This document shows positions 2,721 to 53,619 of a stretch of 64,000 nucleotides of DNA, piece after piece (position 1 is the first letter of the stretch; each line of letters opens with the position of its first letter). Source of the stretch: Atopsyche davidsoni (Eukaryota > Arthropoda > Insecta > Trichoptera > Hydrobiosidae); the NCBI GenBank assembly GCA_022113835.1, contig JAILWY010000008.1:7630501-7694500 (forward strand), read 5' to 3'. The notes under the pieces are model-generated. The model was not told the origin of the DNA. It saw nothing but the letters and a program-made list of their open reading frames with translations, and did no database searches. Made by a program: the position numbers and the translations under genes.

Positions 2721-4480
2721 GCTTTGTAAGAATTATAACATTACCACATAATCCAAAAGATCAGTTATCAAACATACATATACACATTAGAAGCAAGATC
2801 TTTCCTCAGAAGAGGTTGGTGACCATTTCACATAACACATCTAAATGTCTGATCATGGTTTTCTAAAAAAAAAAATAATGTAGTGCATTATTATACAATT
2901 TAATATTGCTTTACGTCTTTTCTACACTTCTACACAAAAAATTACGCCTTTTAGACTGTAAAATTTATAGTTATTTACTCACTCACCATCTAATCAACAA
3001 GCAAGTAATATATTTTTTTATTTAATATACTATAAAGTAACTAGGTTTGAGAGTTTTCAAATGTTAAATCTACAATCAAAAATAATCACAAAAAAATATT
3101 TATTAAATAAAAAAATGATTATTCTGAAAACCTAAATATTTGTGGGTTTTATAGATAACATATTTTTATTCCAATAATTGCGAACATAAAAACTTGTAAA
3201 AGGTTTAAATCTTGTTTAAAGGTTTAAAAGTTGTTCAGGATGTCTTTGACTGTAGTCAGGTCTACCGTGAGATTTGTGTGTTGGTGCTTTGAGATGAGTC
3301 AAGCTCTGGGAGCTGAAACCCTGAAGGATCAATTAAGGAAGCTTTGAAGCTCACAATACATTCACTCGTTGAATTCATGCTACAAAACCTAACAGAAGTT
3401 TGCGAGGCCATTTTTTGTGTACTCTTTCAAGTAATATGGTTAGCAAAAGAAACTCTACACTATTTATTTCACGTACTTTTCTGGATGTTTACGAACATCA
3501 ATTTTAATTATGTTTTGTGAAAAAACAAATACGAATTTCCTGAAAATTACGAAATAGCACGTTTTGTACAGTCCTCGTTATCTACATTACATTAATTAAT
3601 TATTCCTGTGGTTTCTCGGTCTAATCTAGTTTATCAGCAGTAAAGCAGTATTTCCATATATTTTACAACAATTTAACTTGACAGGTAATGACAAGTACTT
3701 GTAAAAGATTAAAAACAGTACTGATAGTATACCATACTCATATTTTTGCGTTTTTTTAAACTTTTGGTATGTGAATCGATAACTTAAAAACTTGCTGTGT
3801 TAAAGCATATTTTTACGGTTGAGCTTCTTCATATATGTATGTGGGTGTGTTTTATTTAGTGCGATCAGAGTTCAACGGACTTTAAATGTTATTGTATGCA
3901 AAGCACGCGGGTAAAAGAAACTAAAACTCTGGAATATCGTAGTTATATTTGGTAGAATCATGGCCATAATCGAGCACCCCGTTTCACACAGTACGGCTGG
4001 GCGATACGCCGCACGCGACTTTACCCGCGACGTGTGGGTCTACCCCACTGGCAAAATCAACAGCTGTATATTTTGAACATTGAACCTGAAACAATATTAT
4101 TTTATAAATTTAAAAAAAAATTCTAACACAAACACAGGTAAATTTTGAAGAAATGGACTGATTTTCAGAATTGAACCAAATTTTTTTAAATAAAGTTTAT
4201 CGTTGACGGTAATCATACAAGATCTAAGGATTGATTATTTTTTTAAAATGGGTTGAAATCCACACGAATTTTTTCAATATTATTTCAATAAAAATAAAAA
4301 AAAACACCATACTCAAAAAATCCTGTGAGTTTGACCATTTGATCCATTAAAGGCCCAAATTTATATTAAATTAAATATACAATCTTAGTCTGTTTATGTT
4401 TTTATTGCTTGGTTTTCTATGTATGTCTATTTTTTGGATTAAACGTCAATCAAGTGCATTTTAATTACCTTTACAGGCTT
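2721..4480. other. AT-rich block with one shared repeat motif
   Basis: Mostly AT-rich and featureless. Positions 2803-2866 resemble a stretch found in both units of the tandem duplication near 61.7 and 62.2 kb: an AAGAGGTTGGTGA core followed by GATCATGGTTTTCTA. A GC-richer patch at 3955-4060 has no coding features. The 16-mer at 3768-3783 recurs at 38188 (exact) and 43448 (one mismatch). Confidence 0.45.
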
Positions 4481-4958: not shown

Positions 4959-4983
4959 ATCCTGTTTATGATAAAAAAAATAT

Positions 4984-5345
4984 ATTTTTGAATAAAATAC
5001 TTGAGTGATTTTCCACATTTTTGTTTTTATTAGTGACCGGTTTCGCCAACTTTTCACTTTGGCATTATCAAACAGAGTGTGATTTTATATAATACTAAGC
5101 AATTAGGTAAACAATTGTTAGAGGGAGATGTTGTTGGAAAGAGAGAGAATGATTGTCAGGTGGTAAGGGCTAATGTGATTTTAATGTACCTGACAAGTGG
5201 AGGATTCTATATAATTGCAAAAATTTTTGTGAAACCGGTCACTAATAAAAACAAAAATGTGGAAAATCACTCAAGTGTTTTATTCAAAAATATTAAAATG
5301 GAATTCCACCAAGTACTCTCTGTCAAAAATATTGAATTTCTAAAA
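4984..5345 (+). mobile_element. Hammerhead-type inverted element, family A, copy 1
   Basis: The left arm (4984-5076) and right arm (about 5225-5290) are reverse complements around ACCGGTTTCG/CGAAACCGGT. The right end carries the family tail, AATGGAATTCCACCAAGTAC followed by CTCTCTGTCAAAAATATTGAATTTCT. The left arm read on the minus strand has the hammerhead-like block described at 18679-18723. Between the arms is about 150 bp (5080-5225) that recurs inverted at 12430-12575. The open frame at 5079-5375 runs through repeat sequence, is interrupted differently in the second copy, and is not a credible protein. The architecture resembles Penelope-like retroelement ends; no reverse transcriptase is present. 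Confidence 0.6.
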
Positions 5346-5439
5346 AAAAATATGTTTAAAAATATAATTCTGTAGTATCGATATCAGAGTTACTGAAGTA
5401 AGAGAGGTAAGTTAGGTCAGACAAGCTTAGAGTATATAT

Positions 5440-5733: not shown

Positions 5734-6216
5734 CGAGGGAAGGCGAAGACTGTCCTATCGGCCGGAAAGGTGATAGCCACCGTTTTCTAGGATTCACAAG
5801 GTGTGATCTACATTGACTACCCGGAAAAGAGCAAAACGGTCACAGGGCTCTACTATACCGAATTATTGAGCCGATTCGACGAAAAAAGTGCTCTTCCACC
5901 ATGATTCACACCCCCGCCGTTGCCACGGCCAAATTGGTCGAATTGCACTACGAACTGCTCCCTCATCCACCGTGTTCTCCAGATTTGGCCCCGTGCGATT
6001 TTTTTTTGTATCCAAACTTAAAAAGTCACTCGCCGGGCAGAAATTTAAGTCGAATGAGGAGGTCATCGCTGCCACGGAGGCCTACTTTGCAGACCTCGAA
6101 AAGATGTATTTTTCAGATGGGTCAAAGAAGTTGGAGCATCGCCGGGTCAAGTGGACTATTTTGAGAAATAAATCGCCATTTTTCTTGTAGGCTAAGTACT
6201 TATCGGACCACCATCG
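5734..6216 (+). mobile_element. Internally deleted, frameshifted mariner relic
   Basis: The middle and C-terminal parts of a mariner transposase (DDE/D cut-and-paste enzyme of the IS630-Tc1-mariner superfamily) can be read across shifted frames. The KTVLSAGKV block at 5746 is followed by a TAG at 5788 where the family has Trp. HHDS with the second catalytic Asp is at 5897-5908, PHPPCSPDLAPCDFF with the third Asp at 5997-5999, and the EEVIAATEAYFADLEK block near 6057-6104. The first catalytic Asp and the N-terminal DNA-binding part are absent. The right end (GGACCACCATCG then TA at 6217-6218) is a typical mariner inverted terminus. The left end, TA then CGAGGG at 5734-5739, is only the tip of it, joined straight to mid-gene sequence. 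The element is therefore an internal-deletion derivative, and several frame breaks make it a dead pseudogene. Confidence 0.85.
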
Positions 6217-10910: not shown

Positions 10911-12288
10911 CGAAATTTACATATTTTTTTACTAAAATCTAGAAGGTGTTTTGAAGCCTATTTTTTTCATCCATAGATAATATTATTATCAGTCTATTAT
11001 TTTTCATAAAAAAATCTATAATGATTGGTAATGCTGTATGGTTGAAAATTTAGCTTTAATACGCATGTTATTTATAAAATTATTTGACATAGCCATATGC
11101 CTGAGAATTTGGCCACAAATATTGTTTGTTATCGGTTTTTCACGATAAATACTTTTTTTAAAATATTTATCGAATGAATAAAATATTTGATTTGTAATAT
11201 ATAGTATAAAGAAAATATACCGATAAAAACAAAGTATTAAGAGCATAGTCAACTATTTCATAATAAATAGTTAATAAAAATTATTATATTATATAAAAAT
11301 TTTAATCGATATCATTGAGTCGAAAAAAATAACAGGGAGTTTCTCTGACTTTTCTCTTATATTATTTTACTAAAAAACATTGTAAAAAAGGTAACCGAAT
11401 ATGATTGTTATAATGACAAACAATACTTTTAATAAGCAATTAAAATATTTAACGTTTAATTTAAAAAAATGTTTTAGATATACACAGACGCTCAAAAACA
11501 TAAAGTATTAAAAAAACATAAAATAAATAAGATTATAAAAGAAATAAAAATATAAAGCGAAAATAACCTCAAGTATCTGCCTTGCTTTTCGAACAGTAAT
11601 TACCCGGTTAAGCTAATTTTCTTTCCAAGTGGAAAATTTTCCACAGAATAAAATTAGTTTTCCAGGAGGATAGGCTATTATATATTATGATATGGGTCCA
11701 CGTTTATCCATGGGAAACTCAAAAATATTACTTTTACGCGCATATAAAGTCCTTTTTATGAAACACACACTTATATGTATTGGTTTCAGCAAAACGATCG
11801 TTTCCAATAAAACATACAAATTATTTTTTTAAATATATTGAATTATGTCATAATATGAATTCTTAAATAGTATATACCTACATTTAATAAAATATTAATA
11901 TTTGAGAGTAAAACTGGGTTATGTCAGTTAAAGAGCTTTTTAATTAAACTAACAAATCAATGTCTTTCAGTTCTTCTTCTTTATATTTTTAATAAAAAAT
12001 CATTTTTAATTAATTCGTAAATAATACATGCATGTATTTAATATTTGTTATTTTTCAATATTATAACTTTTCTCCATCCGTTACTTTTTAATTGAATTAT
12101 CAAATTGGTGTAAAGTAATTTCACACAAAAATTATTCACAAGTAAGCATCTATTTGATACGTGATACTTTATTAAAAATAAACTTATAGTGTCTGATAAT
12201 TTGAGTTACATGTTAAAATATTCTTTTCTTATAATATTTCCTTTTGTTTTCAGTTTTTTTTTATTATTGAATTGTGACAAAAATATTG
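10911..12288. other. AT-rich non-coding block
   Basis: No feature recognised. The 78-codon minus frame at 11016-11252 is low in complexity and unlike any protein I know. Confidence 0.55.
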
Positions 12289-13109
12289 AGAAATTCAATA
12301 TTTTTGACAGAGAGTACTTGGTGGAATTCCATTTTAATATTTTTGAGTAAAACACTTGATTGACTTTCCACATGTTTGTTTTTATTTGTGACCGGTTTCG
12401 CCTTTACCACATTAATATAAAAACATTTGTTCACAAAATTTGCAATTATACAGAATCCTACACTTGTCAGGTACATTAAAATCACATTAGCTCTTACCAC
12501 CTGACAATCACTCTCTCTCGTTCCAACAACCTCTCCCTCTAACAATTGTTTACCTAATTGCTTATCTACTATAATAATATCCATTGTGTGTGTGTATGTT
12601 TCATTTTTTGGTTTTCTATAGAATATCTTAAAAGATACAACGCTGATTTTTTGCATGTAAGTTTAATAAATTTTTCCGCAGCTTTGTGCCGAATTTCAAG
12701 ACGATACAATAATATTTTTATTTATAAACTAATTTAATAAAACTATAAAATATGCTTTAGCGAGTTTCAATATGAACGAATTATAGGATTTTATTGTTCA
12801 ACGCGAGAATTTAAAACTTAGAACTTTTACAAAAAAACAAATTTTGATGCTTCTTAGAAATTTCAGCTTGACACAAGTATCAATTTTATTTTTTTTATCG
12901 AAATTACGTTAGAAATTATTAATCACATCATAACTCAAATAATAACTCAAAATGCCTCCGAAAACGTCATTCTGTGACGGGCAACATTTCTAGTTATCAT
13001 ATAAAATCTCACTCTGTTCGATAGTGCCAACGTGAAAGGTTGGCGAAACCGGTCACAAATAAAAACGAGCATATGGAAAATCACTCAAGTATTTTACTCA
13101 AAAATATAT
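12289..13109 (-). mobile_element. Hammerhead-type inverted element, family A, copy 2 (interrupted)
   Basis: The left end carries the family tail inverted (12289-12340), then a CGAAACCGGTCAC block on the minus strand (12389-12402), then about 150 bp matching 5080-5225 of copy 1 in reverse. The right arm (13010-13109) has a plus-strand hammerhead-like block: a GCCAAC/GTTGGC stem, then GAAACCGGTC. A Helitron (12580-12993) interrupts the unit. Comparison with copy 1 gives the uninterrupted sequence, so the two outer parts are one element. The minus frame at 12264-12656 simply crosses these repeats. Confidence 0.65.
12580..12993 (+). mobile_element. Non-autonomous Helitron, deletion derivative, nested
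   Basis: Starts TCCATTGTGTGTG after an A and ends with hairpin CGTCA(TTCTG)TGACG at 12965-12979, a ten-base spacer, then CTAG before a T: the rolling-circle Helitron format of A|TC...CTAG|T with no target duplication. Its first 370 bp or so match the longer copy at 20650-21308. At the ATGCCTCC start of that copy's coding relic it jumps to the 3' hairpin, so nearly all of the internal region is deleted. It needs Rep/helicase supplied elsewhere. It sits inside a family A element. Confidence 0.85.
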
Positions 13110-18200: not shown

Positions 18201-18563
18201 ACTGGACTACTGAATTCAAGAATAAATTTAATTATATTAATGCTGTGTAAACCATACTAATAATATACATATAAAATATTATACTTCAGCACATTCAAAA
18301 GCAAGCATCGGTGGAAATAAAGCAAAATAAAATATAAGAAATTATCATAACTGTTACGAGGTGACATTATTTAGTTATAACTTTTTTATTTAGTAATAAC
18401 TGTGTTACTTTTCAACATTCATTTTACTACTTACATACCAAGCTAAAACGAAAAAAAGAGTATTTAAGTATTAATTTATTCAATTGCATCAAATTAAATG
18501 CTTTTAAGGATATTTAAAAAATTTACTTTTGATTCAGAAAAAATCATTAATATTTTTTAATAT
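15247..18563. other. AT-rich block with small GC-richer patches
   Basis: Patches at 16205-16360, 16600-16910 and 18055-18200 have no supported coding content. At 17127-17146 a T-rich tract and TACAG abut GTAGAA, which looks like an acceptor but is a poor donor. No repeat boundaries recognised. Confidence 0.5.
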
Positions 18564-18832
18564 TTTGAATAAAAATACTTGAGTGATTTTCCACATTTTT
18601 GTTTTTATTAGTGACCGGTTTCGCCAACCTTTCACGTTGGCATTATCAAACAGAGACTATGACTCTATCAAACTCTGACTCTGTTTGATAATGCCAACGT
18701 GAAAGGTTGGCGAAACCGGTCACTAATAAAAACAAAAATGTGGAAAATCACTCAAGTATTTTTATTTAAAATATTAAAATGGAATTCCACCAAGTACTCT
18801 CTGTCAAAAATATTGAATTCCTAATATTTTTT
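18564..18832 (+). mobile_element. Hammerhead-type palindromic element, family A, copy 3
   Basis: The clearest copy. Arms 18564-18655 and 18679-18770 are near-perfect reverse complements over about 90 bp with a 23-bp spacer, and the family tail (18771-18832) follows the right arm. Each arm, read outward, contains a hammerhead-like block, so the element carries two facing copies. There is no coding capacity. The size and asymmetry (a tail on one side only) match the other copies at 4984, 12289, 44305 and 50887. Confidence 0.7.
18679..18723 (+). ncRNA. Hammerhead-ribozyme-like motif, variant core (family A)
   Basis: Order of parts: TTGATAA (18685-18691) at the place of CUGAUGA; one extra base; a 6-bp stem II, GCCAAC/GTTGGC (18693-18698 and 18706-18711), with a 7-nt loop; GAAA (18712-18715); the palindrome CCGG where helix III belongs; then the UC of a GUC cleavage triplet. 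Relative to the canonical core, C3 is U and G8 is A. These two bases pair in the active structure, so the double change preserves a Watson-Crick pair. Stem I is weak (about 2 bp). Self-cleavage, if any, would need dimer formation. Activity is uncertain. Confidence 0.45.
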
Positions 18833-20649
18833 ACTCAATCAACAGTGAATTATGATATATTTCTCAAACATTGTAACAAGTAGTCTCTTTTACGTTTAGT
18901 TATGCAGCTAATAAAGATTTCTTTATTTTTAAGAATATACTGTTTGATTTCACGTGCACCCTTAGTGAACTATAGAGCCTCTTTTAATCCAACAAAGCCT
19001 GATGACTTTGAAAGGTCCAGTGTGATAGTACTGTAGTGGACCACAACAAACTTTTCGCTTAGGAGAGGATTCGGTTGGTCATAGAGTTTCTACATTTCGT
19101 TTAAATACTTTTAAAACAGTAAAAGCATTTTATGAAAGCTGCGAAAATTCACATTGCACTACCGTCTTGGTTTATATTTTAATTTTAGTATCCATAATTT
19201 ATGAATCTCATAAAGTACACAGGCGATTGCAACAATGTTTAGGGGAAGACATCAAAAATATGAAAACGCCAATTTTATTGTTGTAGAACTAGGTCGTCCG
19301 TTTACGTAACGCCATATTATCCGTTTTAAAACAAATACTGGCAGATTAACTTTATTTATACTAAATATTAATAAAAAATACCGCTCCAGCTTCAAGATAT
19401 ATTTATTAAAACGGTTACTGATCTCCTCTGAGGAGAGGCGCCTGAAAAATAAGAATCAAATATTCAACTTTTAAAACTATTTTATGTAAGAACACACCTT
19501 TTCACGAAATTTGATTGTTTTTTAAATAATGCAGCATATTTTTGGCATCTGACTAAAATAAATAATAAAAAAGGCTACATTATTAACAATCGAGGTATGT
19601 TAAAAAGTGTATTTTTTTTTCTACTAACACATGTCATTATTGGATAGTGAACAAATATATATTACTTTATAAATACGCTAATTAAAACATTCATAGCCGA
19701 GTCTTATATGGGTACATATCAATGGTTTTATTACTTTTAATACAGTCCGTGTACTGTAAAACGGTTTCTATCGACAAGCAGAAATAAAACGTCCATTATA
19801 AGTGCTGCATTTCGACATATAACGATTGAAATTTTATTTGCCCATAAGAATGGATATTTTTATGGGTGTTCTGTTAAAATTTTACAGTTTTATCTTTAAG
19901 TTTCAATTCTACGACAAATGGTTGCTATTTTGACATATTTTAAGATACTTTTACGATTTTGAATTCGCATAGTTGTACATCGCTCATAAATTTCATGTTT
20001 TACGTAAGAAAGATTAAGTATTTAATATTTTCACCGATTAAAATAAGAATTAATTTATTAATACTTAGCAATGACTTTAATACAAATTTATGCTAGCATA
20101 TAATCCATTTCAAGAATGCCAGGTTTTTTGATGCTTTGTAAAATAATAGAAAAAATTTATATTCCTAAGAAAAGATACTTTTTAAAGAGTCGAAGACTGC
20201 ATTTCATTATGAATATTTTACGTTCAGTGTAGTCGAATAAAACCATTATCACAGAAGCTTTATTTTATCAAGGTCTGCAATCTGTTTTAATTTTTTCAAT
20301 GGTAAATAGAATTTCAATAAATTGGGATTGTACCAATATAAATCTGAAACTCTTTGATTGATTAGTAACTGTGAAATTTAAGAAGTTAAATAAAGATTAT
20401 TTAAAAAAAATGTATTTTTGCTTATATTAGTTGTATACTGTAACATAATTATGATTTTTTTTCTGATGTTTATTTACGTTTTCTTCATGAACTGTTTACA
20501 TTGCATGCATTAAATTATTGGATTTTGTTGTGGTGCTTATACATAAATGAATGTCAACTTAGAAATATCTAAGTATGAACGAACGATGTGTATAGACGTT
20601 GAAAACACACAAAATGTAATTTTATTATTATTATTATTTTATAATAATA
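18833..20649. other. AT-rich block
   Basis: Nothing coding or repeated recognised. A GC-richer stretch at 18950-19085 is unremarkable. Confidence 0.5.
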
Positions 20650-26420: not shown

Positions 26421-26462
26421 AAATTGTGATCGGTTTCGCCCAAACGGAGGCTTCGTCAGACC
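26421..26462 (-). ncRNA. Hammerhead-like motif, family C (probable relic)
   Basis: On the minus strand: CTGACGA (26459-26453), one extra base, a GCC/GGC stem II with an 8-nt loop, GAAA (26437-26434), CCG, then AUC. The CUGANGA and GAAA boxes are intact. Helix I pairs only about 2 bp and helix III does not close, so it is probably inactive. It has the same layout as the other motifs in the window, including the extra base before stem II, but a different surrounding sequence. Confidence 0.4.
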
Positions 26463-42695: not shown

Positions 42696-43820
42696 TCATT
42701 TTCTTTTGATTTCTTCTTAAAAATCAGCCCAAGTAGACTATATTTAATATCTCGAAATATATGGCCTGGAGTTTTTCTTTCGTTGCGAATTCCGTGCGAG
42801 ACTCTCTCATGTGGGACGTGGTCAATCCATGGTATTAGCATTAGTAATTTGAGTAAAATATTGACTTTACGAAATAATAAAAACGTTACCATATTTTCCC
42901 GCAGTTTCGACACGAATTTTCTTCAAAAAAGCCGGTTTTATTTACAGCCTAGGACGGAAAACTTTCCAGAAAAGGCAGATTTTTTTCTAATTGTATAATT
43001 TACATAATATATAAGCAGAAGCGGGAAGCCTCAATTAAAGAACTTTATTCTTTTTCCTTCTTTGCTAATGACATTCGTATGCAAATATTCGGCCGTACAA
43101 TTATTTTATTATTTATACTTTACATAGAAATGAAATTTGAATCGGTCGGCGCTTTCAAAACAGTGAGAGTAATTTATTACAAGGAAATAAAATTTAAATA
43201 TTTTTAACCCTGCTGTGTTGTTGATTTCTCTTTATTTGAACACAAATAACAAAGAAAAGAAAAAATAAAGTAAAATAGATTAAAATCAATTTTCAGTAGA
43301 TTTTATTAAATCTTTGAGAATTCATTTTTACTTTGGCTATGCTAAAGTAAAAATAAAGTTGATTTACTACTTTGAAAATATTAGAAGTCCCGAAGCCATA
43401 TATTTTTTGTTGAAAAATAAACCAATTCAAAATATTTATTTTGGCTGTATGAGAATCGATAACATAAAAACATATTGTATAAAATTAAAGGTAACTGCAA
43501 AAACTAAACGTAATTGATAAATTTTGTGAACCTTACTTAACGTAACATCCATCTTAATATTATTTATTCATTTAGTAAATTGAATATTTTAATCAAATAT
43601 CGAGAGGTAAACAATTTATTAATTAGAATTTTTTGTTTTTTTTCTCCAGTATTTAAATTTGTTACTATATTTAGCAGAAAAATGAGACCGTTGTATTCAT
43701 TTATAGATCGTGGGGATAAAATAAATTTTGTTGAGGAACAAGGCATTTATTTGGTGAAGGTCCATCATTATTTAAGGACTTCAGATGCAAAATAAACTAA
43801 TAAAATAAATAAAGTTTATT

Positions 43821-43867
43821 ATGCATCTGAAGATGACCAACTTCTTGGCTCGAGACTAGTTATGCAT
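43821..43867 (+). ncRNA. Hammerhead-ribozyme-like motif, family B, eroded
   Basis: A 6-bp stem I (ATGCAT at 43821-43826 with ATGCAT at 43862-43867), CTGAAGA (allowed change at the variable position 7), one extra base, a stem II of GA plus CCAA with one bulge, GAGA in place of GAAA, palindrome CTAG, then UU. The GAAA-to-GAGA change hits a core adenosine and should weaken or abolish cleavage. Confidence 0.5.
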
Positions 43868-44078
43868 TGAATTTAATAAAATTTAATAAATAACTACAAA
43901 ATAAATATGTATACCCTAAATACGAAAATTATATAAAACTAAATAAAAAATGTATTATCATAAAAAGTTAAAAAAAATCTTTTGGCTAACTATTTTTGAG
44001 AGGGTTGCTTTGCTGTTCAATGAGTTCTTAAGAAAAATACTAGATAGAATATTCCAAAATAAACTAATAATTTTTTTA

Positions 44079-44271
44079 TATAATGATAATGGTAACTTTG
44101 TATTCTTTCTTCACTTTGAGTTTATTATATTTTTTGCATGACTAGTTTCGACCAACAACTAAACGTTTAGTTATGCATCTGATGATGACCGAGTTTGTTG
44201 GTCGAAACCAGTCATGCAAAAATATAATAAACTCAAAGGGAAGAAAGATTACAACGTTACCTTTATCATTT
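44079..44271 (+). mobile_element. Palindromic element carrying a hammerhead motif, family B, copy 1
   Basis: Arms of about 75 bp (about 44079-44155 and 44199-44271) are imperfect reverse complements that run out from GGTCGAAAC to AAAGTTACC.TTATCATT. The right arm with the centre contains a complete hammerhead-like core on the plus strand. The left arm keeps only the GAAAC side; its CTGATGA side is replaced by AACTAAACGTTTAGT. Non-coding. Confidence 0.65.
44174..44218 (+). ncRNA. Small hammerhead ribozyme motif, canonical core (family B)
   Basis: Stem I TGCAT/ATGCA (44174-44178 with 44214-44218), core CTGATGA (44179-44185), one extra U, stem II GACC/GGTC (44187-44190 with 44200-44203), GAAA (44204-44207), then CCAG replacing helix III and a GUC cleavage triplet ending at 44213. 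Every conserved core base is present. Very small hammerheads with a nearly absent helix III are known from Penelope-like retroelements, where they cleave as dimers. That family knowledge supports the call; the extra U before stem II departs from the textbook core. Confidence 0.65.
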
Positions 44272-44304
44272 AAAAAAAAATGGATCTTCACCAATCAAAT
44301 GCCT

Positions 44305-44487
44305 ATTTTTGAGTAAAATACTTGAGTGATTTTCCACATGTTCGTTTTTATTTGTGACCGGTTTCGCCAACCTTTTACGTTGGCACTATGAAACAGATTA
44401 GAAGCATGTGGAAAATCACTCAAGTATATTACTCAAAAACATTAAAATGGAATTCCACCAAGTACTCTCTGTCAAAAATGTTGAATT
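44305..44487 (-). mobile_element. Hammerhead-type element, family A, copy 4 (one arm truncated)
   Basis: The left arm (44305-44396) has the minus-strand GAAACCGGTCAC block. The right arm starts only at CATGTGGAAAATCACTC (44405) and so lacks its ribozyme-like half, then continues into the family tail to about 44487. The core box reads TTCATAG, more eroded than copy 3. Confidence 0.6.
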
Positions 44488-44589
44488 TTGTTTTAAAATA
44501 AATGACGGAACGACTTTGTGTTTAGTATACTAGAAATTCGATATGATTTCTAAGCTTCCATGTCACATAAGAATATTGAGTTTAATTTA

Positions 44590-48720: not shown

Positions 48721-50549
48721 CTACGAGTCTGCAGCTATACGGATGAGTTAGTACAATAGTAAAAGAAAGCATTCGCATACTTTACAAAAATATAAGTTCT
48801 TTTGCTTGGGAAAACTGAATTCTTAAATCATGTTAACTTACACTGAATGTAAAGTATAAAAATTATATATAATATATATATTTTATTTCAGTTAATATAA
48901 CCTGTTTTAGTGCACACAAAATGTCGTATTATATAAAAATGTTGACTACACTTTGCAGAGTAACGGAAACAGACAAGTCGACTTCCCAACCAAAAAACAA
49001 CAAATGGATTACTGGCCAATTTATAAAGAAAAGAATATACATCAAACTCAATAAAACATGTAAATGTACCTAAAAGCATATTTAATCACAAATTCACTCA
49101 GGAAAATCCAATTTTCCTGGGAAAATTCTAGTTTAAAGCAAATCCAATCCTATATCATATCAACCTTTATCTTTTTGCATTATGAAACGCAATAAACACA
49201 CCTACCCTTCTGAATCAAATTGTGATCCTATCTGTCTCTACAACCCCCGTACCATTCATATGTATATACAGGAGGGTATAACATCATAACTAATTTTTAA
49301 TAGTAAAGACTGTATGCGTTATTTAAATATAATATAAACAAATTTGTGAAAGCAGTGAATTTATTTGCTATTAAAAGAATCAAGCATGGGACGTCTTGGA
49401 TGAGAGTGCAAAAAGCTAACTTAAACATTTTTATAGGAAATCATTTAACCTTTGTTTTAAAATGTGTCAACTATGACTCAATTTATTTTATTTAAAAATA
49501 GGATTTATAAAGACAGTGTACATATTTAAGAAACGTCCTTTTTTTTCTGAATAATACTTATTTTCGTTTTCGGTTTTTTATTTATCCATAAATATAATCC
49601 ATTGAATTTTTTTTATCCCTCGTCCCCTGAACTTTTTAATTAATAAAAAATCTGAATACGCAGTTTCGAAGCACCCTGCTTACGGGGGTGGGTTTCTTCT
49701 CATCTTCAATTCAATTCAAGGGTAGGCCCACACGCCCCGGGCTGTGCTTGCCGGACTCTGTTGTGTTTCCGCAATTTTTTCTTTCTCTTTCAGAGTTTAA
49801 TAATGATTCTTTTATAGTGTGTATTTTTTTTTTCCAGGCAGAGATAATATTGTATCGTACGTCGGAGAGCCGAAAAAATTGTTTACAAAATCGTACTTTG
49901 GAAAATTTCATTATATTTTATCAGCGTGTACTGTATATTTGAGAAGATGAGAATTTATTTATTATGTGTCTTTACGAATTTGTAAAAGTTTTGTGCGCAA
50001 AAACTGTTCAAATGATCAGTATATAATTGAGTTTTTCTTGTGCTATGGCTAGGGTATGGTGATATTATTTTTAGGTGAATATATTATGTTTTTATTATCA
50101 TGTATTTTGAAACAATTCAGCTCATCGCCTATGAAGTTTGAAAATAAAATGTTAGGGTATAAGTCTAGGGGGTAGTTGGAAATCTCTGCAACGGACGACC
50201 CCCGTCACCGCTCAGGGGCCATAGATAATCGCAATCCTTTCTTCCTTTGAGGGGCCGCCTTTTGAACTTACGCATGTCAGATGAGGGCATTTTAAAAACA
50301 CGTTCTTTGCGGACTCGGGGAGGAGTCCCGGCCCTCTCGAATCCGAGGCTCGGAGGCTGTTGAGGTGAGATGCTGGGCGGTCGGTTAGAGACGAAATAAA
50401 ATTATTGTCTTCTTTGCTCTTTAAGCGGGGGTTTTTGAGCGAAAAATCCCGCTTTTCTGTGAACTCACTGAAGGCTCTATAGTTTTTTTTTCTACTTGCT
50501 TTTACTTGTTGAGAGACAAGGCATTTGAATGGTGAAGATCCATTTATAT
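48721..50549. other. Non-coding block with a GC-rich island
   Basis: Positions 50160-50470 are GC-rich with no recognised frame. 49688-49942 is an 84-codon plus frame without a domain. The remainder is AT-rich. Confidence 0.45.
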
Positions 50550-50766
50550 AATGAAAATAATAACTTTTTATTTAAATCTTCACAGTGGGTTTATGTAGAA
50601 TATTGTATTTGCATAACTAGTTTCGACCCTATAAACCGGGTCATCATCAGATGCATGACTTAAAACTGATGATGACCCGGTTTATAGGGTCGAAACTAGT
50701 TATGCAAATACAATATTCTAAATAAACTCACTTTGAAGATTTAAATAAAAAGTTATTATTTTCACT
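50550..50766. mobile_element. Palindromic element with paired hammerhead motifs, family B, copy 2
   Basis: Arms 50550-50650 and 50666-50766 are near-perfect reverse complements over about 100 bp with a 15-bp centre. The centre holds facing ribozyme-like cores, one per strand. The arm ends (AATAATAACTTTTTATTTAAA) differ from copy 1, so the two share the ribozyme portion and part of the arms only. Non-coding. Confidence 0.7.
50610..50655 (-). ncRNA. Small hammerhead ribozyme motif, canonical core (family B)
   Basis: On the minus strand: stem I TGCAT/ATGCA (50655-50651 with 50614-50610), CTGATGA (50650-50644), one extra U, a 5-bp stem II GACCC/GGGTC with an 8-nt loop, GAAA (50624-50621), palindrome CTAG (50620-50617), then UU before the predicted cut. 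All conserved core positions are present. The CTAG palindrome would pair between two molecules to make helix III. The plus-strand mirror core (50666-50706) has the same boxes but lacks the stem I partner. Confidence 0.65.
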
Positions 50767-50886
50767 ATATATGAATAACTGTAATTTAAAAAATTTCTTC
50801 ACATATTTTTGATTACTTAGTGCTTTTTTATAGAGATCACTTTTTTTGTGAGAATAAACAAAATCTTAGTAAATATGATTGTAATA

Positions 50887-51104
50887 TTTTTGAATAAAAT
50901 ACTTGAGTGATTTTCCACATTTTTATTTTTATTAGTGACCGGTTTCGCCAACCTTTCACGTTGGCACTATCAAACAGAGTTGTAGAGTACTCTGTTTGAT
51001 AATGTCAACGCAAAAGGTTGGCGAAACCGGTCACTAATAAAAATATAAATGTGGAAAATGGAATTCCACCAAGTACTCTCTGTCAAAAATATTGAATTTC
51101 TTAA
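50887..51104 (+). mobile_element. Hammerhead-type palindromic element, family A, copy 5
   Basis: Arms 50887-50979 and 50989-51059 with a ribozyme-like block on each. In the right arm GTGGAAAAT runs straight into GGAATTCC of the tail. The missing 35 bp or so are bounded in other copies by AAAAT repeats, pointing to a slippage-type deletion. The tail ends near 51104. Confidence 0.65.
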
Positions 51105-53619
51105 ATATGATTGATTAAATAACAGTTCTTAATACTGACGTATGCTGTTGTCGCGATATTGCTAAAATTTACTTAACGTTTGAACAATCGTAAAACTGAC
51201 TTTATTATAAAGAGTCTTGTATTCGTATACTCACTAATGAAAAAACATATATTTCCATCAATTGCTGTTAGTAAATTCAACGATATGATTTTCTAGAAAA
51301 GTATATCCTTATGTATATTTACGTTTCTTTCTACTTTAAAAATAAGGCTCTTTCGCTATCATCCTAACTTCATTTGCGATACAAAATATTAAAAATTGTA
51401 TACTTTGAAATCAAAAAATAAAGCTGTTAGGTACGAATAATATAGTTTTCATAATAAAACAATTTTCATAATCTTATTTACAAAAAACTCGAAAATCCAG
51501 ATTGATGTCTCGGCCGCCAGGCTCTAGATTTACTCCTCCCCCGAAGTTTGATCGTCTCCTTCTAAAAATTCAGGGCTGGACGCTGTGCATAATCCCTCTT
51601 CCTGAAAGTTAAATTGCCCTTCCCGGGATTATCTGGGATGATCAGATAACCCGTGAGTATGAACGCCCCCTTGTTAGGCACGGCGCTGCGGGGATGAGGA
51701 TCTACCCTTTGTGTTATTAGATTGTAGCGGATTAGAGACTCGCTTTGTCACTCATTCTCGCACCGTGGAATTGATAGACTTAATCTAGATGTAGCTTGTA
51801 TTGTAGCCTTCATGGGAGGTGTATAAGAAGTTTTGAACTGTTGAATTATACCGGAGCTCATGATTTATAAACACGCTGTGGAGTTGTATAACTCGTGTAT
51901 CTTGATATGCAAATATTTTTAAAAGGTATAATTTAAAAGACGCTGCAGTATCTCTATTGACGCTGAAATAGATAAATGACTTATCCGCCCTAAAATAAAT
52001 TATACAGAAGAGCCCGAGAAAGTTTACTTTTTGCAAAAATATATCACTGTGATTTATTTTGATCTGTAAGTTAATATTTTAAACTTCATCTGTATTATTT
52101 CAATAAAAAAAATTCTTTCAGTTTTCAACGTATCGTCTCGAGAATTCAAGTCATCTTCAATGAGTGAAAATTTGTTGTTTAAACATTTTTTAAAAACTAT
52201 TTAAGAAAAAATAAAATAACACTTTGTGACACTTTTTAAAAATAAATACGTTTGATTAATGAATTACGTTATTTACACATGAAAAAATAAAAAGATTTAG
52301 ATTGTACCAATTAAACCCTCATTTGATAGCTGAGGACAGACCCACCGAAATTCTTTTATACAATCCAGCCATTTGCCAAATGGCCTGAAGTCTTTTCAGA
52401 GAATTTTTTCAAAAATGGCGGAAACGGATGCTTTTGATCGAAAGATGTCAGCATCAGGTTACAATTTTCAGCTTTTCAAAAATAAATGGCTTTCGTTTAC
52501 AAAAAAAAAAAAAAAACCACCGGAACTCAACAAGAATACGACAGCGATTTTCGAGGGGATGATAAAAATGTAAGAGCTCATTTCATTTGAATTTTTATTG
52601 TTTACTTTCTTGTGAATTTATTTAATGTCACTTATAAAGACTATTGACTGCTCTACTAAATATTTAACATATTCGTACTTGTATACATATTTTCTTTATA
52701 TTGAGGTTTTAAAATGTGAGACACATCATTTTTATTGTAAAGCTTGAAAAATTGCAAGTCAAATCACATGCTATTTTAATGAAAAATTATAATATGAATT
52801 ATATTAAAAATAGATCAAATTCAATAAAACTTAATGTACAGAAGAGTTGTTGAGAAATGTTAAGAAGTTCGTTTTTTCGGTCAAGACATTATATCGAGTT
52901 ATTATAATATATTAAAAGAGGAACGGTCAAACTATAAAATACATTCATACAATGCAATCTTTTGGTTCTAAAATTGAGAACCAGGTGTTGGTACCGAAAT
53001 AGCCGTGAAAAAGCTGGATTCATTGTTACTCGGAGATATTTCTAGACCGACACGCTATCCACAGATATACAAAGCTTAAGAACGAGAAAGATTAATTATC
53101 TTGAATTTAATTTGATCATTCATAGTCGCCAGTCTGGTGAAACTTGCAGTTTGAGGTATTTTGATAACCTAAACAATCGCGATTGCATGTACAGTAAGCT
53201 AGAAGGGACTGAATGCTGAAGTTATTTACCTAAGTCAACATTTTCATTTCTTATATATATATATTAATATATGACCATGTGTAAAAATTATTTTAAGAGT
53301 ATTGGGATGTGAACAGTGGGATTGGAATAAATACCTCCCAGCAATCGTGGCCTAGCGCCGCAACGCCATTTGACCTTATTGTATTTTGTATACAAACCCA
53401 CTTTTAAGAATTTTTCAGCTTTTAAGGATTCGTTGGAGTAAAGGAAAATTCGAGATTACAATCGAAAGTGGGTGAAGTGAATTTTTCAGAAGCCACCCTT
53501 CCCAACGATTCATCTCAGTTCCTCTAATTCAATTAACAATCCGTCCATTGGGCGCCTATATAAATACGCCAAATCTAATTATGAAATGTAGCGGGCGGAC
53601 TGGCAACGTCCATGAGATA
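51105..53619. other. Non-coding block with a GC-rich island
   Basis: 51505-51740 is GC-rich and contains a donor-like CCC|GTGAGTATG at 51651 without a matching acceptor. A CGAGACGATACGTTGAAAA stretch on the minus strand (52120-52166) resembles a decayed hammerhead block. The frames at 51785-52036 and 52373-52573 show no domain. Confidence 0.45.

Follow-up and report, generated by a model that had tools for sequence, protein, structure and literature searches.

A palindrome at positions 50506-50771 of the 64,000-nt stretch of Atopsyche davidsoni DNA analyzed here (the window) most probably goes back to a Penelope-like element (PLE) that resides in this genome and encodes an endonuclease: it would be a short and old insertion, formed from two cDNAs, one per target strand, that were joined head-to-head. 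The palindrome, designated A1, consists of two copies of the same Penelope-type element end, arranged back to back and each carrying a small hammerhead motif. This pairing looks like a by-product of the insertion of the element and not like a ribozyme machine. The palindrome is of value for its set of copies, with which the mechanism of insertion can be tested: given uninterrupted copies of the element and many short palindromic insertions, two-sided priming can be weighed against self-priming through tails, flank repeats, and junctions.

Anatomy of the A1 palindrome and its hammerhead motif

On the minus strand, A1 has a tail and the pLTR arm that bears it; these meet, head-to-head, a pLTR arm without a tail on the plus strand. 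The inverted arms (50545-50650 and 50666-50771) are 106 nt long and 96% complementary, with a spacer of 15 nt between them. The parts are as follows:

50506-50771, minus strand: whole A1 insertion, delimited by the inverted arms and by alignment with 38 other genome copies and A2; outer boundaries set by eye
50506-50546, minus strand: one-sided tail, reading by eye as MDLHHSNALSLN
50547-50665, minus strand: tail-bearing pLTR arm, extending to the inferred 5' end of the template RNA at about 50663-50665
50610-50655, minus strand: small hammerhead layout, with predicted cleavage between 50615 and 50614
50666-50771, plus strand: pLTR arm without a tail; it breaks off at CUGAUGA and therefore lacks stem I
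50666-50701, plus strand: hammerhead core without stem I

The minus strand reads UGCAU-CUGAUGA-U-GACCC-GGUUUAUA-GGGUC-GAAA-CUAG-UU-AUGCA, which is the layout of a small type-I hammerhead. As assigned by eye, stem I pairs UGCAU (50655-50651) with AUGCA (50614-50610) and stem II pairs GACCC (50642-50638) with GGGUC (50629-50625), each over 5 bp, and the core is formed by CUGAUGA (50650-50644), GAAA (50624-50621), CUAG (50620-50617), U16.1 (50616), and U17 (50615). The two 5-bp stems, the CTAG at helix III, and the UU at the cleavage position described in a first-pass annotation of this DNA were all found at 50610-50655. The same annotation considered the minus-strand core complete; its conserved bases are indeed present, but an extra U (50643) between A9 and stem II had been overlooked. 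It also reported a mirror core on the plus strand, where the core and stem II are as in the minus arm but stem I is absent and AAAA stands upstream. The conserved core (CUGANGA, GAAA, NUH) is present on both strands. In the minus arm, which has stems I and II, the palindrome ACUAGU stands where helix III would be, and helix III would consist either of two pairs around a 2-nt loop or of an intermolecular ACUAGU pairing. The canonical spacing, with stem II directly after A9, is found in neither of the two families of copies described below, as both A and B have the extra U. An unpaired residue after A9 does not exclude activity, because a viroid hammerhead with such a residue is described as self-cleaving (PMC3705267). 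Judging from sequence, we grade the A1 motif as a hammerhead layout and not as a proven member of a ribozyme family.

A motif descriptor, made after the sequence had been seen and requiring C3-G8 or U3-A8, a stem II of at least 4 bp, a helix-III pair, and NUH, matched the window seven times as compared to 0.45 matches per simulated window (200 first-order Markov simulations); the seven matches are non-independent, being copies of two repeat families. When a stem I of at least 4 bp was also required, there were two matches as compared to 0.005 per simulated window. The folding energy of the A1 minus unit was unremarkable (z -1.92; 8 of 200 shuffles were as stable), and its minimum-energy fold (-14.5 kcal/mol) is not a hammerhead, the hammerhead fold with helix III open reaching -12.0 kcal/mol. 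Folding alone gives the hammerhead reading of A1 little support. The Rfam hammerhead check proposed in the first-pass annotation came out negative: nothing matched at gathering score in the whole window, and hammerheads were absent both from the three matches up to E=10 at 50600-50658 and from the 24 matches of a permissive scan of 50400-51200. Because Rfam missed the hammerhead motif in the pLTR of the uninterrupted PLE as well, the absent covariance hit at A1 says little. Separately, pattern scans for this hammerhead type in viral contigs returned 19 loci, which we rejected as chance matches, their longest uninterrupted stem II being 3 bp.

A transcript of the whole palindrome is predicted to pair its arms along their length, forming one long hairpin of about -151 kcal/mol as compared to the -12.0 kcal/mol of a single unit in the hammerhead fold; such a hairpin would bury the ribozyme. 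Because the cores lie on opposite strands, each transcript carries one sense and one antisense core, and no tandem hammerhead dimer can form in cis. In a predicted co-fold of two same-sense A1 units, AACUAGUU pairs between the units and stem I is not formed; a dimer of two separate same-sense transcripts would be possible according to such modeling.

Copies in the window and across the genome

The window contains two families of palindromes, A (CUGAUGAUG) and B (UUGAUAAUG, with U3-A8 replacing C3-G8). Family A is represented by A1, A2, and a remnant, and family B by B1, B2, B3, B4, and fragments at 12.3 and 13.0 kb. The insertions besides A1 are:

43728-43890, plus strand: degenerate family-A remnant with a tail-like piece at 43728-43778 and GAGA instead of GAAA in the core
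44070-44303, plus strand: A2, second family-A head-to-head insertion, with the tail at the right and a left arm without the first half of the core
50870-51113, plus strand: B1, family-B head-to-head insertion adjoining A1, with the 12-bp repeat TAAATATGATTG at 50870-50881 and 51102-51113
18548-18833, plus strand: B2, family-B head-to-head insertion, with the 12-bp repeat TAATATTTTTTA at 18548-18559 and 18822-18833
4973-5353, plus strand: B3, family-B insertion whose arms are unequal and lie 166 nt apart, with an AT-rich 11-bp flank repeat
44304-44488, plus strand: B4, family-B insertion abutting A2, with a degenerate core

The 12-bp flank repeats of B1 and B2 are perfect; the flanks of A1 have no recognizable direct repeat and those of B4 no clear one. 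A2 has a hammerhead layout with a GUC triplet at 44179-44213. The cores of B1 are UUGAUAA (U3-A8) in the plus arm and UUGAUAG in the minus arm. Stem I of family B is only 2 bp in the window copies, and hammerhead activity of this family appears doubtful from its sequence.

Several other features of the window were recorded. The middle of B3 (5087-5230) shares sequence with the 12.3-kb fragment (12403-12600), which also matches L035, L040, L072, L077, L087, L095, and L127. By our reading, a long open frame runs through this shared middle, antisense to the family-B pLTR; Pfam returned no match for the coding-looking middle of B3 when tested via the related frame 12267-12662. A single hammerhead-like core of a third type, CUGACGA-A-GCC..GGGC-GAAAC, with a stem I that is weak by eye, lies at 26433-26459 on the minus strand. 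Overlapping open frames at 5817-6187 (plus strand) gave no Pfam hit; they resemble what we take to be the end of a decayed mariner transposase.

We searched the 370.7-Mb assembly (80 contigs) using the A1 palindrome without its tail as the family-A query. The search gave 891 candidates, 40 of which were scored, and these matched both strands across nearly the whole palindrome over 205-237 bp. Besides the window copy, 39 places were fetched, and 38 of them were aligned with A1 and A2 (40 rows; L056 was left out). The outer ends recur in nearly all rows, while the inner junctions vary. With a permissive tail pattern, exactly one tail was found at 41/41 family-A loci (the 39 fetched, A1, and A2); a stricter pattern gave 38/41, and the three loci without a clear tail by that pattern (L043, L061, and L062) were excluded from the flank-repeat, center, and arm-distance sets. 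The family-B query contained the tail. Of its 1317 candidates, 40 were scored, which yielded 30 loci, each with the tail that the query included. Both of these first queries favor palindromes.

Flank repeats of at least 8 bp, most commonly of 12 bp, were present in 27/37 family-A and 28/29 family-B copies, as compared to 20/300 and 9/300 in controls that paired the flanks of different copies at random. In this count, A2 gave no tail end, L092 gave no left end, and the 28 family-B copies include both L066 and L067, which represent one duplicated copy. These two insertions lie on the same contig at a distance of about 7.8 kb and have identical center and flanks, that is, they reflect a local duplication. 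Two further family-B insertions, L068 and L078, lie within simple AT-rich repeats, in keeping with the AT-rich target preference that has been reported for PLEs (PMC11167929, PMC3846280). The centers of the palindromes were largely unique: 31 distinct centers were found among the 34 family-A copies with both anchors (38 were put in and 4 gave no center), four copies sharing one, and 29 among 30 in family B, where the single repeat is L066/L067. The mean distance between an arm and its own partner was 0.039 as compared to 0.080 for arms of other copies in family A, and 0.016 as compared to 0.028 in family B, and the own partner was the nearest arm (ties allowed) in 13/34 and 23/29 copies, respectively. 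Because the arms of one copy are on average nearer to each other, both probably derive from the same or sister RNAs. The junctions of family B contain truncations and 6-35 nt that can be assigned to neither arm.

C3-G8 was found in 59/63 family-A arms with the full pattern, and U3-A8 in 59/59 family-B arms with the full core pattern (60/61 with a looser pattern). Pairing of stem II is kept through two-sided changes (GACCC/GGGTC and GACCT/AGGTC in family A; GCCAAC/GTTGGC in family B), and about one-third of the distinct family-A variants have a shortened stem II. The difference from the majority was 0.7% for GAAA, 1.5% for the 3' strand of stem I, 1.7% for helix III with U17, 2.2% for the two core bases, and 3.4% for stem II with its loop, as compared to 6.1% in the rest of the arm. 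At the sequence level, this conservation fits a motif that is kept in the source element and decays in the copies.

A search with one arm plus the tail gave 1578 candidates, 40 of which were scored. An inverted partner within 600 bp was listed for 23 of these 40 places. This number is a lower bound because two of the places without a listed partner, L128 and L137, proved to have one. All 23 listed pairs have the head-to-head orientation, and the partners stop short of the tail, at query positions 100-117 of 146. Ten of the 17 places with no listed partner were fetched. Apart from L128 and L137, these comprise L129 and L134, which continue upstream into PLE 3' sequence, L134 having a 66-nt opposite-strand match that may be a partner, and six that look one-armed (L130-L133, L135, and L136). 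L130, L131, and L133 start at AGTTTAAGTC, adjoining unrelated DNA, and L132 is shorter by a few nucleotides than this start. Two cases are ambiguous: L136 also starts at AGTTTAAGTC, but its BLAST match to the long element extends 39 nt further at low identity, and the three bases preceding L135 are also found in the long element. Among the six, flank repeats were found at L136 (13 bp, 11 nt from the arm, by script) and L130 (9 bp, by eye). Thus, one-armed insertions exist alongside head-to-head pairs.

The resident element and the mode of insertion

A search of the same genome for the GIY-YIG domain gave 24 matches, all above the cut-off, three of which lie in uninterrupted 826-codon frames (L118, L119, and L120). 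The PLE ORF (810 amino acids from the first Met) matches RVT_1 (2.4e-10) followed by GIY-YIG (3.5e-5); in L119:1572-4001:-, these domains span residues 346-527 and 705-743. The resident element thus has the reverse transcriptase and GIY-YIG order of an endonuclease-bearing PLE in one ORF, whereas the window copy holds only the ORF start. The L119 ORF starts with MDLHHANALSLNN, with which the A1 tail MDLHHSNALSLN, as read by eye, agrees at 11/12 residues. Moreover, the pLTRs of L118-L120 carry a hammerhead-like core upstream of the ORF that is one base, next to GAAA, off the family-A copy L061. Because of the ORF-start match and the near-identical pLTR core, we assign family A to the pLTR ends of this kind of PLE. 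The assignment of the motif to the small Penelope-associated hammerheads, already made in the first-pass annotation, is borne out by this close variant in the resident pLTRs. PLE-type features of the insertions include pLTRs with an optional tail running into the ORF start, a hammerhead motif in the pLTR, and target site duplications, which the two families have at the frequencies given above but A1 does not.

Ten long GIY-YIG regions (L118-L127) were fetched, with L119 serving as the reference. Seven of them (L118-L121, L123, L124, and L126) are head-to-head. Their tail-less side ends at reference positions 3143-3151 in L119-L121, L123, L124, and L126; in L118, which pairs an arm of about 3.4 kb with one of 79 bp, the short arm is the tail-less side, and its end at 222 is the equivalent position of the 5' pLTR. 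On the tail side, the long copies end at 3184-3191, or at 264 for the short arm of L126; for this side, L119 is the reference itself and thus no independent case. L122 starts one-armed inside the ORF, and L127 is a diverged remnant. Hammerhead-like cores number four in L121, three each in L119 and L120, two each in L118, L123, and L124, and one each in L122 and L126; none were found in L125 and L127. The GIY-YIG place on C11, L125, was rejected as a family member, having no open frame of at least 150 codons, no hammerhead-like core, and no match to L119. None of the 24 GIY-YIG places provided a partner protein for family B, which we provisionally file under PLE from its shared architecture and the likeness, by eye, of the tails MEFHQ and MDLHQ.

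Across the family, one arm has its outer end in the ORF start (the tail), and the outer end of the other is located about 43 nt further upstream. The hammerhead motif of the pLTR is contained in both arms, which extend towards the same 5' limit, (A)GTTTA(A)GTC, situated some 16 nt ahead of CUGAUGA; the arm junctions are variable, with filler or microhomology. In the mechanism that we propose, the element protein would cut both target strands about 12 bp apart, and each 3' end would serve as a primer for reverse transcription, which would begin at one of two internal sites of the RNA. The resulting cDNAs would extend to or near the RNA 5' end, with the common limit as the presumed transcription start, and would then be joined head-to-head during repair by a presumed joining enzyme. 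Short palindromes would arise from RNAs starting in the pLTR and long ones from read-through tandem RNA. The hammerhead would be present in each arm because its place is the extreme 5' end of the template RNA, which was not cut at this point. The predicted cleavage site is spanned by 80/82 family-A and 60/60 family-B locus strands, although the queries span the site and thus favor uncut copies. In the single-arm search, in which arms need not match the whole query, 24 partner arms start at query positions 1-2 (18 of 24), 31 (two), 34, 43, 56, and 61, and none at the cleavage site (37/38). Together, the site-spanning strands and the partner-arm starts suggest that the templates were uncut there, in keeping with PAc, the Poseidon element of Anolis carolinensis (PMC11167929).

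We weighed this reading against several others. For bdelloid Penelope elements, self-priming has been proposed, in which the 3' end of an antisense PLE RNA loops back and acts as the primer for reverse transcription of that same RNA, giving head-to-head inverted copies, and the known head-to-head inverted pLTRs and junction palindromes were interpreted in this way (PMC3846280). The similarity of the RNAs from which the two arms of a copy derive would suit self-priming as well. By our reasoning, however, fold-back should produce identical outer ends, whereas a single tail marks each of the 41 family-A loci examined; arms may be as unequal as in L118, and the family-B junctions are truncated and contain nucleotides of neither arm, which together make self-priming improbable here. 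It is very unlikely, in our view, that selection favored the two head-to-head hammerheads as a palindromic element capable of self-cleavage. The core and stem positions vary less than the rest of the arm and stem II complementarity survives changes on both sides, but the source PLE alone would produce such a constraint. Since most copies have a center of their own, the palindrome does not represent a conserved unit; stem I is often missing on one side, and both the predicted hairpin and the opposite orientation of the cores, which precludes a tandem dimer, speak against a joint function. Of the two possibilities left by the first-pass annotation, a functional unit or an insertion by-product, the former is disfavored by the varying centers and the latter agrees with the single tail, the varying centers, the flank repeats, and the PLE ORF start in the tail.

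The inverted arms, direct flank repeats, and many candidate places could also point to transposase-driven movement of a palindromic MITE or foldback DNA transposon. This is extremely improbable: the symmetric terminal inverted repeats of such elements were not found, as the outer ends are asymmetric with one tail at all 41 loci, the centers vary, and the tail encodes the start of the reverse transcriptase/GIY-YIG ORF of the same genome. We give equally little credence to a microRNA or siRNA hairpin locus, which would be favored by Rfam matches of low score, reaching 79.2 bits, to families of miRNA precursors; all 24 matches at 50400-51200 fall below their gathering scores, and the two-strand matches of several families are what a long hairpin would produce. 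We dismissed the miRNA families of this permissive scan as unspecific matches to a hairpin. The reading as two joined cDNAs has to accommodate the lack of a flank repeat at A1, the 17/40 single-arm places with no inverted partner listed, and the just 13/34 family-A copies in which the own partner is the nearest arm, and it draws on only 40 scored places from each of 891, 1317, and 1578 candidates. We prefer it because of the ends about 43 nt apart, the mostly 12-bp flank repeats, the shared 5' limit, and the variable junctions.

The hammerhead motif was kept in the source element and is probably a passenger in the A1 copy. A more general proposal, which we advance tentatively, is that PLE retrotransposition is usually two-sided, with one cDNA from the tail site and one from about 43 nt upstream, and that short RNAs starting in the pLTR are a main substrate, giving rise to many palindromes without an ORF. 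Under this proposal, the hammerhead would leave the template unprocessed; its target could instead be the mRNA 5' end, from which it might remove, for instance, the first ~50 nt together with the cap.

Comparison with known Penelope-like elements

Small PLE hammerheads reportedly cleave as dimers, according to Luense et al. in 2017. Their very short palindromic helix III resembles the ACUAGU and ACCGGU found here. The present motifs differ from these small dimer-type hammerheads by the extra U after A9 in families A and B, and the palindromic copies are inverted and not tandem. PLE hammerheads are described in reviews as tandem dimers (PMC6466107, PMC7761336), and their role was called unknown in the 2020 review (PMC7761336). 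The U3-A8 pair of family B is shared with the U3-A8 hammerheads of PMC3088659, but is combined here with the 2-bp stem I of the window copies; since that 2011 report already describes natural U3-A8 covariation, we do not consider the pair a new feature.

The resident PLE is similar to PAc in having a protein with reverse transcriptase followed by GIY-YIG and a hammerhead near the pLTR-ORF junction (PMC11167929). The PAc ORF starts at stem II, whereas the frame of the resident PLE begins only after the motif (ATGGATCTTCACC), on its downstream side. In PAc, both target strands are cleaved and extended, and two reverse transcription start sites bracket the tail. Hammerhead mutants left its insertion unaffected, cleavage needed the protein, and uncleaved RNA serves as the template; the 2024 study notes that further insertion steps are yet to be validated (PMC11167929).

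A closely related architecture is that described for Pen2a and other elements of Adineta vaga (PMC3846280), which, as here, have head-to-head inverted pLTRs and a pLTR plus tail covering the ORF start. The account of these elements includes an optional 31-bp tail on one inverted pLTR and target duplications of 8-10 bp in some copies. As compared to that description, the scored short copies of the present genome have no ORF between their pLTRs and come from many candidate places, their flank repeats are mostly 12 bp, and their arms share a common 5' limit.
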